Shown here piece after piece: positions 27,230 through 34,999 of a DNA stretch of 64,000 nucleotides. Both the position numbers and the translations under genes were made by a program. The first letter of the stretch is position 1. Each line of letters opens with the position of its first letter. Origin of the DNA: Parvimonas micra (GTDB lineage: Bacteria; Bacillota; Clostridia; Tissierellales; Peptoniphilaceae); NCBI RefSeq assembly GCF_021300775.1, contig NZ_JAJTJP010000001.1, positions 1 through 64,000 of the forward strand. Direction: 5' to 3'. The notes below the pieces were generated by a model. It had not been told where the DNA came from. It saw only the letters and a program-made list of their open reading frames with translations, and made no database searches.

Positions 27230-28633
27230 TTATTTAAAATCATTTTTTGCATCTGGTTTTTTATCTCTATTTTGAGGGTCACCTTTTTGTACAGGAAGAT
27301 TCTTATCCATATACCAAGAATTCCATCCACCATCATAAATTACAGTATCTTTCCATCCTGTCATTTGTGTCATAAACCAAGGAATACCTGCTCTCCAACC
27401 TGTTCCACAATAGAATGCGACTTTATCGTTTTGTTTAATTCCTTGAGTATCCCATAGTGCATATATTTCTTCTGGATTTCTTATAGTTCCATCCGGATCA
27501 TAATAATCATCCATATTTTGAGCATCTGTACCAGCAAACCCATAATATGATCCTTTTGGTTCACCAGCTTCAGGTATATAGTCATAACCACTTATTTTTC
27601 CTATATATTCATCCCAAGCACGAATACTAACCAATTTATAATTTTCTTTTTCGATTTTTTCAACCATATCTTTAGCTAAAGGAATTGAAACATTTGGGTT
27701 TTGTGGAATAGTAACACCGAATTTAGAATCAGCTGTTGGTTTATTTACAGTTGTTTCAACTTCAAAACCTGCATTTTTCCACGCTTTAAATCCACCGTTC
27801 ATGTATCTAATATCTTTAACTCCAGCCCATTTTAAAGCCCAGTAAACTCTAAAACCTGCAGATGCATCATCTGAATATATTATAACTGTTTTATCACTAG
27901 TAATTCCATTTTCTAGAAGAGCTTTTTCTATTTGTTCAGGACTTCTTAGATTCCATACAGGTTCTTCTTCAATCAAGTCTGTATTAAAGTGAATAGCTCC
28001 TTTGATGTGTTCTTTATAGTTCTTAGCTTTATCAACTTCTCCCCAAGAAACTTCTAAAATTGTAAATTTATCATTAGTATATGTTTCTGGTTTTTTATTA
28101 TCCATAACGTCTTTAACCCATTGTGGAGAAACTAGCATTTGATAATTTGGATATTTAACTAATTTTGCATTTGAATCCTCAGAATATTTTACTAAATCTG
28201 AAAATATCTTTGCTTTAAAACCATTTTTCACAAGTACATCAGCAACTTTTGTAGCTCTTTGGGCATCTGTATCATATACTATTTGTTCTTTATCTTTTGA
28301 AATACCTTTATCCTCGATATATTTTACTAATTTAGAACTATTTACCTTTTCAACATTTTCTGTAGAAAGTTGAATTGCTTTTTCTAAATGTCCAGAATTT
28401 TTCATTTTTCCATCAGAAAATCCATTAAATTCTTCATCTTTTCTTGAATCAATAAATTGGATGTTATCTTTTCCGATTGATTCTTTAAATTCTTCAACAG
28501 ATATGGATTTAATTTCTTCTGTCTTTGTATTTTCTGTGTTCTTAGTAGTATTATTATCTTTAGATTTGTTGCAACCAACAAATAAAGCAGAAACTATAAC
28601 TAAAGATAATACCACTGTCTTCTTAAATTTCAT
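27230..28633 (-). CDS. Rhodanese-repeat lipoprotein (thiosulfate sulfurtransferase-like)
   Basis: A 467-residue exported lipoprotein (lipobox ALFVGCNK) with three rhodanese-like repeats. The first (~45-150) and second (~170-290) lack an active-site Cys: IVYDTDAQRA and VIIYSDDASAGFR at the equivalent loops. The third (~320-450) keeps it, in VAFYCGTGWRAG. A sulfur-transfer role outside the cell is plausible. It has its own promoter and lies at the edge of the ArsS-type cluster, which has a second, cytoplasmic rhodanese protein. Confidence 0.85.
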   Translation of the reverse strand: MKFKKTVVLSLVIVSALFVGCNKSKDNNTTKNTENTKTEEIKSISVEEFKESIGKDNIQFIDSRKDEEFNGFSDGKMKNSGHLEKAIQLSTENVEKVNSSKLVKYIEDKGISKDKEQIVYDTDAQRATKVADVLVKNGFKAKIFSDLVKYSEDSNAKLVKYPNYQMLVSPQWVKDVMDNKKPETYTNDKFTILEVSWGEVDKAKNYKEHIKGAIHFNTDLIEEEPVWNLRSPEQIEKALLENGITSDKTVIIYSDDASAGFRVYWALKWAGVKDIRYMNGGFKAWKNAGFEVETTVNKPTADSKFGVTIPQNPNVSIPLAKDMVEKIEKENYKLVSIRAWDEYIGKISGYDYIPEAGEPKGSYYGFAGTDAQNMDDYYDPDGTIRNPEEIYALWDTQGIKQNDKVAFYCGTGWRAGIPWFMTQMTGWKDTVIYDGGWNSWYMDKNLPVQKGDPQNRDKKPDAKNDFK

Positions 28634-28754: not shown

Positions 28755-28794
28755 AATAATAAAAGATAGCCATCTAGTAAAATAGATGGCTATC
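28755..28794 (-). terminator. Terminator of the minus-strand glycosyltransferase/VTT operon
   Basis: A perfect 11-bp stem (28765-28775 with 28784-28794) is followed on the minus strand by a T-rich tract. Its 5' arm includes the stop codon of the upstream gene. Confidence 0.85.
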
Positions 28795-29503
28795 TGTCTT
28801 TCATATTATTATAAATTTCATTTAACTTATCAGGACTTTCACCTTTAAAATACATAATTTTTAGTTTATGCATTTTAAATATTGTTCTTAAAGTACCATT
28901 TTGTTTAAATCTTCTTGATGAAGAAATAATTTTATTATTAAGTAATTTAAAGTATTTGGAATTACTTTCATGATTTTTTATGTCTATAAAAAATTGCAAA
29001 TCTTCCATTATTGGAATATCTCTAAAACCATTAATTTCATCAAAGAGTTTTTTTGTTACAAAGATGCTCTGATCACCAAAACATATTCTAAATATTTTAG
29101 CTCTAAGGTTAGATAAACAAGCTATTAAAGATAGTAATATCGAATTTGGATAAAATTTTATTTTCAATCCACCACATTTGATATTTTCTTTTTCTATTAA
29201 ATTTTTTATTTTTCCATCTACTGTATAATCTAAAAATTCAGAGTCTGAATGAATAAACCATAATATATCACAATCTGTATATTTAACAGCTGTATTCATT
29301 TGGATACTTCTACCTTTTTTAGATATTAGTAGCTTATAATTGATATTGTTAAAAGACTTTTCAAATATTTCATTTTTTTTGAAATTATCAACTGCCTTAG
29401 AAATAATAATTTCATCAATATTCTTAAATTTATTTAATTTTGTCAATAAGTTTTCTATCATTTTATCATCATTGTAGATTGGTATTATAACAGCTAGTTT
29501 CAT
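28790..29503 (-). CDS. Glycosyltransferase, rSAM/selenodomain-associated transferase 2 type (TIGR04283)
   Basis: A 237-residue GT-A protein: KLAVIIPIYNDDKMIENLL, KKGRSIQMNTA and the DXD-like site DILWFIHSDSEF. The KGRS-Q-N pattern is typical of TIGR04283 proteins found beside ArsS-type radical SAM genes, some in arsenosugar pathways. It starts 2 bases after the VTT gene and lies in an operon with the type 1 transferase. Confidence 0.82.
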   Translation of the reverse strand: MKLAVIIPIYNDDKMIENLLTKLNKFKNIDEIIISKAVDNFKKNEIFEKSFNNINYKLLISKKGRSIQMNTAVKYTDCDILWFIHSDSEFLDYTVDGKIKNLIEKENIKCGGLKIKFYPNSILLSLIACLSNLRAKIFRICFGDQSIFVTKKLFDEINGFRDIPIMEDLQFFIDIKNHESNSKYFKLLNNKIISSSRRFKQNGTLRTIFKMHKLKIMYFKGESPDKLNEIYNNMKDR

Positions 29504-29505
29504 AT

Positions 29506-30150
29506 TTATTCCTTATCATACTTTTTAATTAAAACAAATGAGATTACAGTAAGTACTACAAAGCCTATAATTGCAATTGTAAATTCTTTACTATATACAT
29601 TAATTGCTTTATCTCCAACATTCAAAAATACAAATGTTCCAGGAATTATTCCCAAAAAAGTAGCCATTGAATATTTTAGAAAAGAAATTTCTGTAAGACC
29701 TGATAAGTAATTTATTACATTATAAGGAGCGATAGGTAATAGCCTCATTAAAAAAATAATAAAAACTCCATTGCTTTTTTCTGCATTAATAATCTTGTTA
29801 TACCATTTTTCACTTATTTTTTTTCTGAATATTTCTAAAACTTTATCTTTTGCAAACTTTTTAGCCATTAAAAACATTATTGAACTATTTATCATAGCAC
29901 CAATCATCGTATATAAGACTCCTTCAAAAAGTCCAAAAGAAATTCCTGCAGCTAAAGCAAGAATCGGAACTGGGAAGAAAAAAATAGGTAGTATTGAAAA
30001 TAACAATATATAAATTAAAGCAGCATTTTTTCCGTATCCTTGAATTATACTTCTTATTTTTTCTGGAGTAAATATTTTAAAGATAAAATACGTAATCACG
30101 ACAAGAAGTATAAGAGAAGTAATAGTAATAATTTTCTTCTTATTTTTCAT
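29506..30150 (-). CDS. TVP38/TMEM64 (VTT) family membrane protein
   Basis: A 214-residue protein with about five hydrophobic segments and the VTT core (FPVPILALAAGISFGLFEG; FLMRLLPIAPYNVINYLSGL). The family is a DedA relative; some members act as lipid scramblases or transporters. A second VTT gene sits at 32.4 kb on the other strand. It overlaps the type 1 transferase gene by 11 bases. Confidence 0.85.
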   Translation of the reverse strand: MKNKKKIITITSLILLVVITYFIFKIFTPEKIRSIIQGYGKNAALIYILLFSILPIFFFPVPILALAAGISFGLFEGVLYTMIGAMINSSIMFLMAKKFAKDKVLEIFRKKISEKWYNKIINAEKSNGVFIIFLMRLLPIAPYNVINYLSGLTEISFLKYSMATFLGIIPGTFVFLNVGDKAINVYSKEFTIAIIGFVVLTVISFVLIKKYDKE

Positions 30151-30805
30151 TGTAAAACTCCCTTAATAATTTATTTAAATTTGAATATTCTGAATATTGC
30201 ATTTCATTTTTTACATAAAATTCTAAATCACTTTTTTCATCAATATCCATCAATATTCTTCCTGTAGAATAAGATAAATTTTGTTTTTTAAAAATTTCTA
30301 CAGTATTTTCAAAAACATTTTCTCCTTTAAAAATATTTTCATCAAAAACTTCATCAACTATATTTTTTAAACCTATTAAGTAATATCCTTTATCAAATGT
30401 TTTGTGAATACAAACATCAAAGTTATCTAAACTCTTTAAAGCAAAACTAATATCCTCTTTTTTCAAAGTAGGAATATCAGTGCCAATTAAAATCACTTTT
30501 TTGTATCCCATTTCAAAAGTTTTCTTAAAGGCATTTTTCATTTTTTCTCCAAAAGAAAAATCACCTTGGGGATATATTTTATTTTCAAAATTAAAAAATT
30601 CTCTAGTATTATCATTTAGTTTTTCATATTCTGTTATAAATAAAATAACATCAGCAAAGTCATTTTTACAAACATTAATAGTATCTTTAATCATTGCTTT
30701 ATGTATTTCTAGAACTAAATTTGAATCTAAGTTTTTACTTAATCTCGTTTTTACCTTGTTTATTGAAGGAAATCTAGTAAAAATTATTATTGCATTATCT
30801 TTCAT
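30140..30805 (-). CDS. rSAM/selenodomain-associated transferase 1 (TIGR04282, DUF2064)
   Basis: A 221-residue nucleotidyltransferase-like protein: IIIFTRFPSINKVKTRLSK, KVILIGTDIPTLKKEDI and DKGYYLIGLK. TIGR04282 members co-occur with ArsS-type radical SAM proteins. I choose ATG 30805, with GGTGAT six bases upstream, over a GTG four codons earlier. First gene of the minus operon, divergent from the arsS operon. Confidence 0.85.
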   Translation of the reverse strand: MKDNAIIIFTRFPSINKVKTRLSKNLDSNLVLEIHKAMIKDTINVCKNDFADVILFITEYEKLNDNTREFFNFENKIYPQGDFSFGEKMKNAFKKTFEMGYKKVILIGTDIPTLKKEDISFALKSLDNFDVCIHKTFDKGYYLIGLKNIVDEVFDENIFKGENVFENTVEIFKKQNLSYSTGRILMDIDEKSDLEFYVKNEMQYSEYSNLNKLLREFYNEK

Positions 30806-30911
30806 ATAAATCACCACAATAACTTTAACATAAAATTAAGAATATTAAAAGCCATTTATCGACTTATTAGAAAATTCTATTAATAGGTGTTGATTTATTA
30901 GTTAATCTTAT

Positions 30912-30940
30912 TTGATATAGACTGATTAATATTGTATAAT
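30912..30940 (+). promoter_or_regulatory. Promoter of the arsS operon
   Basis: TTGATA (30912-30917) and TATAAT (30935-30940) with exact 17-base spacing, 37 bases before the CMD gene. Confidence 0.8.
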
Positions 30941-30976
30941 TTATTTGTTAAAAAATATAAAAAAAGGAGAAAAATT

Positions 30977-31318
30977 ATGAGTAATAATTATTTTGAAAAG
31001 AAAGATTTAGGATGTTTTGCTAATGGAGAATTAGGAGAAGAAGCAAAAAAATTATGGGATGAATTTTTAACATATTATGGAGATAGCACTTCTGAAGGAG
31101 CTTTAACTAAAAAAGAAAAAGCACTTTGTGCATTAGCTGTAGCATTTGCTACTCGTTGTCCATACTGTGTAGATGCTTATACTCAAACATTAGTTTCTAT
31201 GGGTGTAACTGAAGAACAACTTACAGAAGTATTACATGTTGCATCTTCAATGCAAGCGGGTATAACACTTGTAAATGGATTTACAATGAAAAATACTGTA
31301 AAAGAAATTAAATTATAA
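30977..31318 (+). CDS. CMD/AhpD-like protein associated with arsenosugar-type clusters
   Basis: A 113-residue carboxymuconolactone-decarboxylase-fold protein. The redox CxxC is in AFATRCPYCVDAYTQ near residue 55, after KEKALCALAVA. AhpD has a His four residues after the second Cys; here it is Tyr. Members next to arsS are called arsenosugar biosynthesis-associated peroxidase-like proteins. Start ATG 30977 behind AGGAG; an earlier ATG at 30932 overlaps the -10 box and is rejected. Confidence 0.85.
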   Translation: MSNNYFEKKDLGCFANGELGEEAKKLWDEFLTYYGDSTSEGALTKKEKALCALAVAFATRCPYCVDAYTQTLVSMGVTEEQLTEVLHVASSMQAGITLVNGFTMKNTVKEIKL

Positions 31319-31365
31319 AAAGTTTTCTTTAACTATTAAATTAAAGAAGCTTTTAAATTTTTTTG
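31319..31365 (+). terminator. Intergenic terminator or attenuator before arsS
   Basis: Directly after the CMD stop, TTCTTTAA pairs with TTAAAGAA, extended by AAAA/TTTT across a small internal loop, and is followed by AAATTTTTTT. It may reduce read-through into arsS. Confidence 0.65.
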
Positions 31366-31475
31366 AAGAGGGTGATTTTATCTTTAATTTAATAAAAAGA
31401 AATTTTGAAGAAGAAAAAGAAGAAAAGGAAGAGAAGATTTCCTTTTCTAACGGAATAGAATTTTCTAGAAAAGTT

Positions 31476-32432
31476 TTGGAATATATAAATTATATTCCAA
31501 AATTTTTTGAGAGAGTAGAAAATAAAAATAATCTATATACCACAAATATGGATATCATGCAACTTAATATCGGTAAAATTTGCAATTTAGCTTGTAAGCA
31601 TTGTCATGTTGAAGCTGGTCCTCATAGAAAAGAGTATATGAGTAAAGAAATTATGGATGATTGTTTATATGTTTTTAAGAAACATGGATTTAAAATTATG
31701 GATATAACAGGAGGAGCTCCTGAGATGATGCCTAATTTTGAGTATCTTGTTGAAGAGTCAAGTAAGATAGCTAAAGAGGTTATAGTAAGAACTAATCTAT
31801 GTATTTTATTAGATGAAAAATATAAACATTTAATAGATTTTTATGCAAAAAATAAAGTAACTATATTTTGTTCATTACCTTTTTATACCAAAGAAATTAC
31901 TGATGGTGTTAGAGGTGAAGGAGTATATGAAAGTTCTATTGAAGTTTTAAAAAAATTAAATGATGTTGGATATGGAAAAACTTTAACTTTGAATTTAGTT
32001 TATAATCCGGATGGAGCTTTTTTACCTGATTCACAAGAATGTTTAGAAAAAGAATATAGAACAAAACTTCTTGAAGAATACGGTATTGTTTTTACAAATT
32101 TATTTGCAATTACTAATAATCCGATAGGCAGATTTGGTATGAGATTATACAAAAAAGATAAATTAAAGACATATATGACAAAGCTCTATAATGCCTATAA
32201 TGAAGATACTGTTGAATTTTTGATGTGTAGAAATGAAATTAATGTATCTTATGATGGATATATTTATGACTGCGATTTTAATCAAGCACTTGATTTAAAG
32301 ATTAATTCAAGTAGAGTTCATATTTCAGATTATAAAGAAAATAACTTTGAAAAAAGAAAAATTGCACTAGGAAACCATTGCTATGGATGCACAGCTGGAG
32401 CTGGAAGTTCCTGAGGTGGTGAAATCGGTTAG
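31476..32432 (+). CDS. arsS: ArsS-type radical SAM selenoprotein (UGA read as selenocysteine)
   Basis: The radical SAM motif CNLACKHCHVEAGP carries CxxxCxxC near residue 37. A C-terminal CxxC region (HCYGCTAGAGSS) is followed by TGA at 32412 and then GGEIG-TAG. This matches the rSAM/selenodomain family ending ...GCTAGAGSSUGG, so the TGA is read as Sec and the true stop is TAG 32430-32432 (318 residues). The start is uncertain: TTG 31476 gives a usual N-terminus but a weak Shine-Dalgarno site, and the frame stays open upstream with GAGGGTGAT at 31368 and only non-standard starts. Family members make arsenosugars or related metabolites. Confidence 0.9.
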
Positions 32433-32443
32433 ACGTGTTCTAA
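32412..32443 (+). promoter_or_regulatory. Bacterial SECIS-like hairpin of arsS
   Basis: The UGA at 32412-32414 is followed 14 bases later by TTAGA-CGTGT-TCTAA (32429-32443). The apical loop contains GU about 21 bases after the UGA, as expected of a bSECIS recognised by SelB. The 3' arm runs straight into AAGGAGG, the ribosome-binding site of the next gene. Confidence 0.75.
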
Positions 32444-32452
32444 GGAGGAAAA

Positions 32453-33157
32453 ATGAAATTAAAAAAATCTACGATTATTAAAATAGTAGCAGTTTTAGCT
32501 GTTGTTTTAATTTGTATTTTTGTAAAACCTGTAAATGATAAACTTAAAGAGTTTGTTGCTTTGTTTAAAGGATCCAGTACTGATGAGGTATTAGAAAATG
32601 TAAAGAAATATATTTTATCTTATGGAAAGTGGGCTATTGTTATTTCGTTTTTATTAATGGTATTTCAATCAATTGCTGCACCTATTCCAGCATTTTTTAT
32701 TACTTTTGCAAATGCAGCTATTTTTGGATGGCAATTTGGAGCATTTTTATCTTGGTCAAGTGCAATGGCAGGAGCAATTCTATGTTTCTATATTGCTAGA
32801 TTATTAGGAAGAGATGTTGCTGAAAAATTTGCAACTAAATTTGCTCTTAATGAAGTTGAAGTATTTTTTGATAGATATGGTAAATATACAATTTTGATAG
32901 CGAGACTTTTACCTTTTGTTCCTTTTGATCCAATAAGTTATGCAGCAGGACTTACATCTATGAGTGCTTGGAGTTTTATTTGGGCAACAGGATTGGGACA
33001 ATTACCTGCAACTATAATTTACTCATATATTGGTGGAGCATTAACAGGAAGTTCAAAAACTTTTGTTACAGGATTATTTATTTTATTTGCAGTTTCAATT
33101 CTTGTATTTTTAATTAAAAAAGTTTATACAGAAAAACATAAGAATAGTGCTAAATAG
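32453..33157 (+). CDS. TVP38/TMEM64 (VTT) family membrane protein, second copy
   Basis: A 234-residue protein with an N-terminal membrane segment and the VTT core (PIPAFFITFANAAIFGWQFG; IARLLPFVPFDPISYAAGLT). About five to six hydrophobic segments. Its TAAGGAGG ribosome-binding site overlaps the arsS SECIS hairpin. It is distinct from the VTT gene on the minus strand at 29.5 kb. Confidence 0.87.
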   Translation: MKLKKSTIIKIVAVLAVVLICIFVKPVNDKLKEFVALFKGSSTDEVLENVKKYILSYGKWAIVISFLLMVFQSIAAPIPAFFITFANAAIFGWQFGAFLSWSSAMAGAILCFYIARLLGRDVAEKFATKFALNEVEVFFDRYGKYTILIARLLPFVPFDPISYAAGLTSMSAWSFIWATGLGQLPATIIYSYIGGALTGSSKTFVTGLFILFAVSILVFLIKKVYTEKHKNSAK

Positions 33158-33165
33158 GAGTTGTT

Positions 33166-34131
33166 TTGAAAGATATTTTAACATATATTGATAAAAATAA
33201 AGATATTTTGGGGATAGATGAATATAAGATTGATTTTTTACAACAAGGTGAATACAATATAAATTATTTAATTACAACTAAAGATAAAAAGTTTGTCTTG
33301 AGATTAAACTCTAAAAGTCAGATGAATTTACCTAATCAAATTAGATATGAATATGATACATTAAAATTTTTAGAAATATCAGGTGTAACACCAAAAGTTT
33401 ATTATGTTGATGACTCAGATAGTAAATTACTTAATGGCGTAATATTAATGGAATATCTAGATGGTAGATCATTAATCTATGAAGAAGATAGAGAAAAAGC
33501 GGCATATATTTTTTCAAAGATTCATTCAATAGATGCTTCAAAAGCTAATAATTTTATAGTTGAAAAGAATTTATTTCAAGACAGAATATCTGAAGCTAAT
33601 TTTTGGTTAAAAGAGGTTTTTGAGAGTAAAAAGGTAAGCAAAGAGCATAAAGAGTTTTTTGAAAAATTTTTAAATTATCTTGAGAATAACAAGTATAAAG
33701 AAAAATATTTTGAAGAAAATAGGATATTATGCTTAAATAATACAGAAGTTAACTCAGGAAATTTCATTATTGGCGAAAAACCGTATTTAATCGACTGGGA
33801 AAAAGCTGTAATCTCCGATCCTTGCCAAGATATAACACATTTTTTAGTTATTACAACTACAAAATGGAAAACAGATTTTATAGCAAGTAAAGAATATGAA
33901 GATAAATTTTTTGAAGAATATGAAAAGTTTTTAAATAAAAAAATAAATATTAAAGAAAGAGTGCATTTATATAAACCATATATGTATTCAAGAGCTTTAA
34001 GTTGGTGTATGAATGCTTATTTAGAATATCTTAAAGAAGATAAACTAATAAAGAATGAAGATACATTTAGAAAAATTAAAGAATTTACTGATTTAGATTT
34101 TATGAAAAATCTAATTAGAGATTATTTTTAA
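33166..34131 (+). CDS. Aminoglycoside-phosphotransferase-fold protein with altered catalytic loop
   Basis: A 321-residue APH/choline-kinase-fold protein: N-lobe (GEYNINYLITTKDKKFVLRL), hinge ILMEYLDG, and metal-binding LIDWEKA. At the usual HxDxxxxN catalytic loop it has NTEVNSGN, so the His and the catalytic Asp are replaced by Asn and Glu. It may be a divergent kinase or a binding protein. TTG start at 33166 behind AGGAG; part of the arsS operon. Confidence 0.75.
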   Translation: MKDILTYIDKNKDILGIDEYKIDFLQQGEYNINYLITTKDKKFVLRLNSKSQMNLPNQIRYEYDTLKFLEISGVTPKVYYVDDSDSKLLNGVILMEYLDGRSLIYEEDREKAAYIFSKIHSIDASKANNFIVEKNLFQDRISEANFWLKEVFESKKVSKEHKEFFEKFLNYLENNKYKEKYFEENRILCLNNTEVNSGNFIIGEKPYLIDWEKAVISDPCQDITHFLVITTTKWKTDFIASKEYEDKFFEEYEKFLNKKINIKERVHLYKPYMYSRALSWCMNAYLEYLKEDKLIKNEDTFRKIKEFTDLDFMKNLIRDYF

Positions 34132-34162: not shown

Positions 34163-34999
34163 ATGTTTGAAAATAAATTTATTGTAAGAAAAGAATTTAT
34201 TCTTGAAAACAGAGATAATGAAAATTTTGTAGTTATTGATGCAAGGGGAGATATGCTAAAGGCTGGAGACTTTGTTTACGATAGAGCTATTGTTTTGGAT
34301 TGGAAAGAATTTACTTTTTTAACTGGAAAAGATAATGAATATGTTGGATTACCATTTGATAGAGAAATTTTACTTGAAAAATTTTCAAAATATGGAATTA
34401 CTCCTAATAAAAAGGTTCTAATATATATTAATACTTGCCCTGGATTTGGAATGGGAGAAGACGGAAGATTTAAGTTTTTATTAAATTTCTGTGGCATTGA
34501 AGCATATATTTTAGATGGTGGAATAAGCGAAATATTAAAAACAGACTTTTATAAAAAAGTAGAAGATGATGAAGAGCTTAATAAAGCAAGTATAGATATT
34601 GATAATAAACCATTTTTATCTTATGAAAAATCAATCTTAACTGATGAATTAAAAAGCATATGTAAAGATGAATTTGTAAAGATTTTAGATGTAAGATATG
34701 AAGAAGAATACAATGGTAAAATTATTTTTGGAGAAAAATTTGGTGGACATATAAAGAGATCAAAAAGTTATCCTTATACAAAACTATATGACGAAAATGG
34801 TTATTTACTAAACAATTCTGATATAGAAAAAGATATATTAAATCTTGGTATTTCAAAATCTGATTTGATAATTGTTTATTGTACAACAGGAATTAGAGCT
34901 TCAATAGTTTATGAAATACTTAGTATGTTAGGATTTAATGTAAGAGTTTATGATGAATCATTTGGAAGATGGTGTATTACTGAAGAATTTGAAGTATAA
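34163..34999 (+). CDS. Cytoplasmic tandem rhodanese (sulfurtransferase)
   Basis: A 278-residue protein without signal peptide, made of two rhodanese domains. The catalytic loop of the second is IVYCTTGIRAS near residue 240. The first domain has a Cys in the equivalent region (NTCPGFGMGEDG) but not a classical loop. It ends the arsS operon and could supply persulfide sulfur or selenium to it; that is inference. AGGAGG precedes ATG 34163. Confidence 0.83.
   Translation: MFENKFIVRKEFILENRDNENFVVIDARGDMLKAGDFVYDRAIVLDWKEFTFLTGKDNEYVGLPFDREILLEKFSKYGITPNKKVLIYINTCPGFGMGEDGRFKFLLNFCGIEAYILDGGISEILKTDFYKKVEDDEELNKASIDIDNKPFLSYEKSILTDELKSICKDEFVKILDVRYEEEYNGKIIFGEKFGGHIKRSKSYPYTKLYDENGYLLNNSDIEKDILNLGISKSDLIIVYCTTGIRASIVYEILSMLGFNVRVYDESFGRWCITEEFEV

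Follow-up and report, generated by a model that had tools for sequence, protein, structure and literature searches.

Two published reviews (PMC9312934; PMC13188914) already include ArsS, the radical SAM protein of TIGR04167 (rSAM_SeCys), among the predicted selenoprotein families, with AAR34688.1 as an example member. The activity of ArsS is the adenosylation of dimethylarsenic, as credited to Cheng 2021 in a passage of PMC12159101. The locus that we describe here, from Parvimonas micra, resembles the rest of the family in its CxxxCxxC motif, in a C-terminal end of the form CTAGxGSS-U-GG, and in its neighbours TIGR04169, TIGR04282 and TIGR04283; it differs from the other TIGR04167 relatives that we examined in an N-terminus that is about 30-40 residues longer across the genus and that would begin at AUC or AUU, and no other distinctive trait was found against these relatives. 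A bacterial SECIS element, as modelled in bSECISearch, is a short hairpin that lies soon after the UGA and carries a G/U atop its loop. The arsS hairpin is alike in its length, its position and its G/U at the loop top, but its stem is a weak one of five pairs that contains the natural stop codon, and it gives no match to the Rfam SECIS_1 model. As for the other end of the gene, conserved non-canonical starts with an extended Shine-Dalgarno are reported for S. aureus infC (AUA), cvfC1 (AUU) and ccpN (AUA), with an output of about 10% of that of AUG in poor medium (PMC13009471). Likewise, arsS appears to keep a start other than AUG, GUG or UUG in related species, each time behind a strong extended Shine-Dalgarno; unlike in the S. 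aureus genes, two species would use AUC and the third AUU, the gene is that of a selenoprotein, and the case is built on sequence.

The window, i.e. the whole stretch of 64,000 nucleotides that was analysed, contains the following features in and around arsS:

27230..28633, minus strand: rhodanese-domain protein
28790..29503, minus strand: TIGR04283 arsenosugar-cluster glycosyltransferase
29506..30150, minus strand: VTT-domain membrane protein
30140..30817, minus strand: TIGR04282 arsenosugar-cluster glycosyltransferase
30932..31318, plus strand: arsenosugar-associated peroxidase-like ORF (TIGR04169) of the Cys type (CPYC), matched from residue 18
31367..31376, plus strand: extended Shine-Dalgarno of arsS, AGAGGGTGAT, duplex -13.1 kcal/mol
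31380..31382, plus strand: probable start codon, ATC (the two sister species have ATC and ATT here)
31380..32432, plus strand: arsS (TIGR04167), full coding sequence as we read it, 350 residues with Sec345, TAG included
31476..31478, plus strand: TTG taken as the start by the ORF lister and in the preliminary description; TTA in KA00581, weak Shine-Dalgarno (-2.4)
32412..32414, plus strand: in-frame UGA, read as selenocysteine 345
32429..32443, plus strand: SECIS-like hairpin TTAGA-CGTGT-TCTAA, weak taken alone, backed by comparison
32453..33157, plus strand: VTT-domain membrane protein, directly 3' of arsS
33166..34131, plus strand: APH-type kinase
34163..34999, plus strand: rhodanese-domain protein

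We hold with high confidence that this locus is arsS, predicted to encode a TIGR04167 radical SAM enzyme in which selenocysteine replaces the last conserved cysteine, and it is very probably a true selenocysteine-coding gene of this known radical SAM family. The preliminary description had the open frame run to TGA 32412 and continue through GGEIG to a TAG, and the sequence bears this out: TGA 32412-32414 is followed by GGT GGT GAA ATC GGT and then TAG 32430-32432, so that the read-through product ends in NHCYGCTAGAGSS-U-GGEIG*. In an NCBIfam profile search this protein matches TIGR04167, titled 'arsenosugar biosynthesis radical SAM (seleno)protein ArsS', with 426.1 bits over profile positions 3-303 of 303 (curated cut-off 300 bits), and it contains both the radical SAM CxxxCxxC and the C-terminal CTAGxGSS(U/C). 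Residues C68, C72, C75, C334, C337, T338-G340 and G342-C345 are invariant in a 29-row alignment in which U is shown as C.

The 29 rows come from a sample of 130 genomes of the family, in which ArsS was over the cut-off in 29 and selB in 48. At the column of Sec345, 15 of the 29 genes have UGA and 14 have a Cys codon; CTAG-x-GSS precedes this site in all 29, and GG follows it in 27, with AG in the remaining two. The UGA is retained in P. micra, G101 and G104, the three species of the genus that bear ArsS, and GGEIG, GGEIS or AGEIS is encoded downstream. selB is over its cut-off in 15/15 genomes with UGA-type and 12/14 with Cys-type ArsS, and therefore hardly separates the two forms among ArsS genomes; its presence in 27/29 ArsS genomes versus 21/101 others is a count without correction for kinship. 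Placed on the tree, the UGA/Cys label requires at least two changes, a minimum too small for testing causes. A class-wide scan of 391 genomes at E 1e-70 or better found ArsS in nine, four of them outside the family, and the five ArsS ORFs of these four genomes are all of the Cys type. Two ArsS matches, both of the Cys type (L057 and L058, in G472), come from ORFs 693 and 680 residues long, lengths that perhaps point to a fusion to another domain. A pattern scan of genome contigs, with patterns drawn from one protein, returned KA00581 as the sole relative.

The hairpin that the preliminary description placed after the UGA, with GU in its loop, is there to the letter (TTAGA 32429-32433, CGTGT 32434-32438, TCTAA 32439-32443): the stem begins after 14 nt, 20 nt separate the UGA from the loop G, and the natural TAG sits within the 5' arm. 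From its own sequence alone this hairpin is unconvincing, and it is the comparison of 29 genes that decides. RNAfold gives z = 0.21 here, with a different weak structure as the minimum-energy fold; 419 of 20000 mononucleotide shuffles of the P. micra sequence (2.1%) yield a stem that scores at least 5, carries GU in its loop and lies within the permitted distance; and two of the three species in the genus leave the top C-U apposition unpaired. Rfam returned only sub-threshold matches to unrelated families for the arsS 3' end, and the lack of a SECIS_1 match, which held for the whole P. micra genome, is uninformative because all 14 control genomes were silent too. For the comparison, we searched the bases 3' of the site codon for stems closing a loop in which GU begins at the first or second base, scoring each G-C or A-U pair as 1 and each G-U pair as 0.5. 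A score of at least 5 was reached in 14 of the 15 UGA genes and in none of the 14 Cys genes, whose best score was 3; the fifteenth UGA gene (L026) carries GGAGTA-GGC-TACTCC instead. The mean best score of the 15 UGA genes, P. micra included, was 5.57 against 1.80 when shuffled, a mean reached by 0 of 2000 mononucleotide shuffle sets, and that of the 14 Cys genes was 0.25 against 1.14. In the 14 UGA genes that reach this score, the loop G lies 17-20 nt after the UGA (20-23 bases from its U). In the UGA genes as a set, the natural stop falls, by eye, in or beside the 5' arm, and the stem sequences vary yet still pair (GAGTA/TACTC, GATGGATA/TATCCATC, AGCTAA/TTAGCT, TTAGAA/TTCTAA). Sec and Cys variants of a single enzyme (15 and 14, respectively), with the hairpin found with UGA only, make the family useful as a natural control in the study of SECIS rules.

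The organism also possesses what decoding would require. In the genome (1.48 Mb, 5 contigs), selD (389 bits) and selA (605 bits) stand consecutively, immediately upstream of selB, and a tRNA-Sec with anticodon tca was found by both Rfam and ARAGORN; SelA, SelB, SelD and tRNA-Sec each exceed their curated cut-offs. The preliminary description had foreseen selA, selB, selC and selD here, and had named the absence of selB and selC as the outcome that would speak against it; when the genome was searched, this absence did not occur. Its central proposal, an ArsS selenoprotein with a Sec-type C-terminus, is likewise upheld by the TIGR04167 match, the UGA at the Cys/Sec column of the family, the Sec machinery and the hairpin comparison. 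One more predicted selenoprotein gene is thus supported together with its machinery. selD (L017, 1474-2529, on C1 of the same genome) itself has one in-frame UGA (SG-U-AAKVG), and the hairpin after it closes on a UAU loop that lacks GU, so a GU loop is not universal among the UGA genes of this genome.

The start of the gene is the less expected part and deserves specialist attention, the selenoprotein family itself being already known. The ATC at 31380 lies 96 nt, or 32 codons, upstream of TTG 31476, and we infer, with good support from sequence comparison, that arsS translation starts at this AUC. Its Shine-Dalgarno duplex was calculated with an assumed anti-Shine-Dalgarno tail; a shorter tail gives -9.5 kcal/mol. 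On the same scale, the values are -10.8 for the ATT of G101 and -10.6 for the ATC of KA00581, to which G104 is identical across the 123 nt compared. The frame above the TTG is kept as protein in all three species (IFNLIKRNF...SFSN-x-IEFSRKVLE), in none of which does it hold an ATG, GTG or TTG upstream of that codon. When we screened the ORFs of at least 150 codons in the window, with canonical starts taken up to 30 codons from the first, arsS alone among 57 had a non-canonical codon that beat the canonical starts by more than 1 kcal/mol. A frameshift into the arsS frame from a GTG (31372 in P. micra) or TTG was considered and set aside, this codon lying inside the Shine-Dalgarno, and no slippery site common to the three species was seen by eye. 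In the literature that we searched, we found no report of an AUC or AUU start for arsS.

Could both ends be read more simply? It is very improbable that the UGA is a true stop that arose from a Cys codon by mutation and shortened the C-terminus, followed by a hairpin that formed by chance. The weak fold of the P. micra hairpin and the frequency with which shuffled sequences match its stem would suit such a reading, as would the lost tail, which is short and poorly ordered in an AlphaFold2 model. Against this stand the conservation of the UGA and of its downstream codons in every ArsS-bearing species of the genus, the UGA at the same site in about half of the relatives, a hairpin that tracks UGA and not Cys, and the presence of Sec machinery. 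Selenocysteine at 345 is thus our preferred reading of the 3' end. At the 5' end, the preliminary description had the gene begin at TTG 31476, and it is quite unlikely that translation starts there, or at an ATG that shortly precedes the radical SAM motif, with 31380-31475 untranslated. TTG is a canonical codon and is present in two of the three species, but KA00581 has TTA in its place, and the Shine-Dalgarno is far weaker than that at the ATC (-2.4 versus -13.1). Moreover, codons 2-34 are conserved as protein: the differences at codon positions 1, 2 and 3 number 4, 1 and 9 between P. micra and G101, and 4, 3 and 8 between P. micra and KA00581, mostly at the third position, and a gap of 3 nt there keeps the frame. 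In G101 the frame opens just 6 codons above the ATT. The TTG is thus very probably wrong as the start of arsS, and the AUC is favoured. If the AUC start is true, arsS would be mis-annotated at both ends, as routine gene calling would err at the in-frame UGA and at the apparent AUC alike.

A separate doubt concerns the substrate, as this TIGR04167 member could act on something other than arsenic, the name ArsS being carried over from the studied members; we consider this unlikely. The scan of nine cluster genes, from 27 to 35 kb, found no ArsM, the other proteins of the cluster are predicted only, and three ArsS genomes (G007, G016 and G069) are without a strong ArsM match. Elsewhere in the P. 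micra genome, an ArsM-like gene with a UGA (L052, 1516-2277, minus strand, on C3; FHAT-U-VAGSI) is followed by the hairpin TAACTTC-GGT-GAAGTTA and is probably a second arsenic-pathway selenoprotein gene. Its product falls under the curated ArsM cut-offs, with 226 to 233 bits against 263 for NF008823 and 84 bits against 400 for the arsenosugar-specific NF038099, which leaves some room for a non-arsenic substrate. Set against that substrate, a strong ArsM-like match occurs in 26/29 ArsS genomes versus 10/101 others (a count uncorrected for kinship), and an ArsM-like gene directly adjoins arsS in some of them (G020, G021 and G032). An arsenic substrate thus remains the reading that we follow below. 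UGA-type ArsM also occurs in G100, G102 and G103, genomes of the genus in which no ArsS exceeds the cut-off.

In the proposed mechanism, translation would start at AUC 31380, aided by the extended Shine-Dalgarno, and this codon would probably hold arsS translation low. SelB would bind the hairpin and deliver Sec-tRNA-Sec at the UGA; after selenocysteine, five further codons would be read, and translation would end at the TAG within the hairpin. The selenocysteine may then sit on a mobile C-terminal tail, after the CxxC pair (C334, C337) of a twitch/SPASM-like domain, where it could serve in redox chemistry or bind a metalloid, while the enzyme would attach adenosyl from SAM to the dimethylarsenic that ArsM provides. 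C283, C298, C334 and C337 are candidate ligands of an auxiliary cluster. The AlphaFold2 model, made from 29 sequences, has a mean pLDDT of 86.5; for residues 343-350, among them Sec345, the value drops below 50. Its nearest solved fold is that of SkfB (Z 20.5, rmsd 3.1, 238 aligned), followed by SuiB, BlsE and other radical SAM proteins, and a sequence search of solved structures gave radical SAM matches that were weak only. We take SkfB and the other nearest folds to be twitch/SPASM radical SAM enzymes.

An AUC or AUU start is of a rare kind, and infC is a known case in which a rare start depends on initiation factor 3; if the arsS start is true, arsS output would probably depend on this factor too. 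The infC of P. micra itself (L053, around 2010-1490, minus strand, on C3) seems by eye to be without an ATG, GTG or TTG at its N-terminus, its apparent start being an ATT or ATA after GGAGGTG. Across the sampled family, non-AUG starts (AUC, AUU, GUG or UUG) were found in 10 of 14 Sec-type arsS genes and in none of the 14 Cys-type genes; the fifteenth Sec-type gene, cut by a contig end, was left out of this count. Outside the genus, starts were taken as the first ATG, GTG or TTG after an in-frame stop, or as a later ATG in three Cys forms. Perhaps arsS is non-canonical at both ends for one reason, with a weak AUC/AUU start throttling ribosome entry so that no queue builds up behind the slow Sec codon; we regard this idea as unlikely. 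Since the Sec-type genes of the sample fall in only three clades, the link between Sec and non-AUG starts may reflect shared descent.

The flanks of arsS bear further features. Between the peroxidase-like gene and arsS, the window holds an AT-rich inverted repeat, TTCTTTAA / TTAAAGAA, within 31319-31379; by eye, KA00581 seems to have a different inverted repeat before arsS, and G101 has almost no gap there. On the other side, the 3' arm of the hairpin shares two bases with the AAGGAGG of the next gene (32439-32452), an overlap through which SelB binding might affect the translation of that gene.
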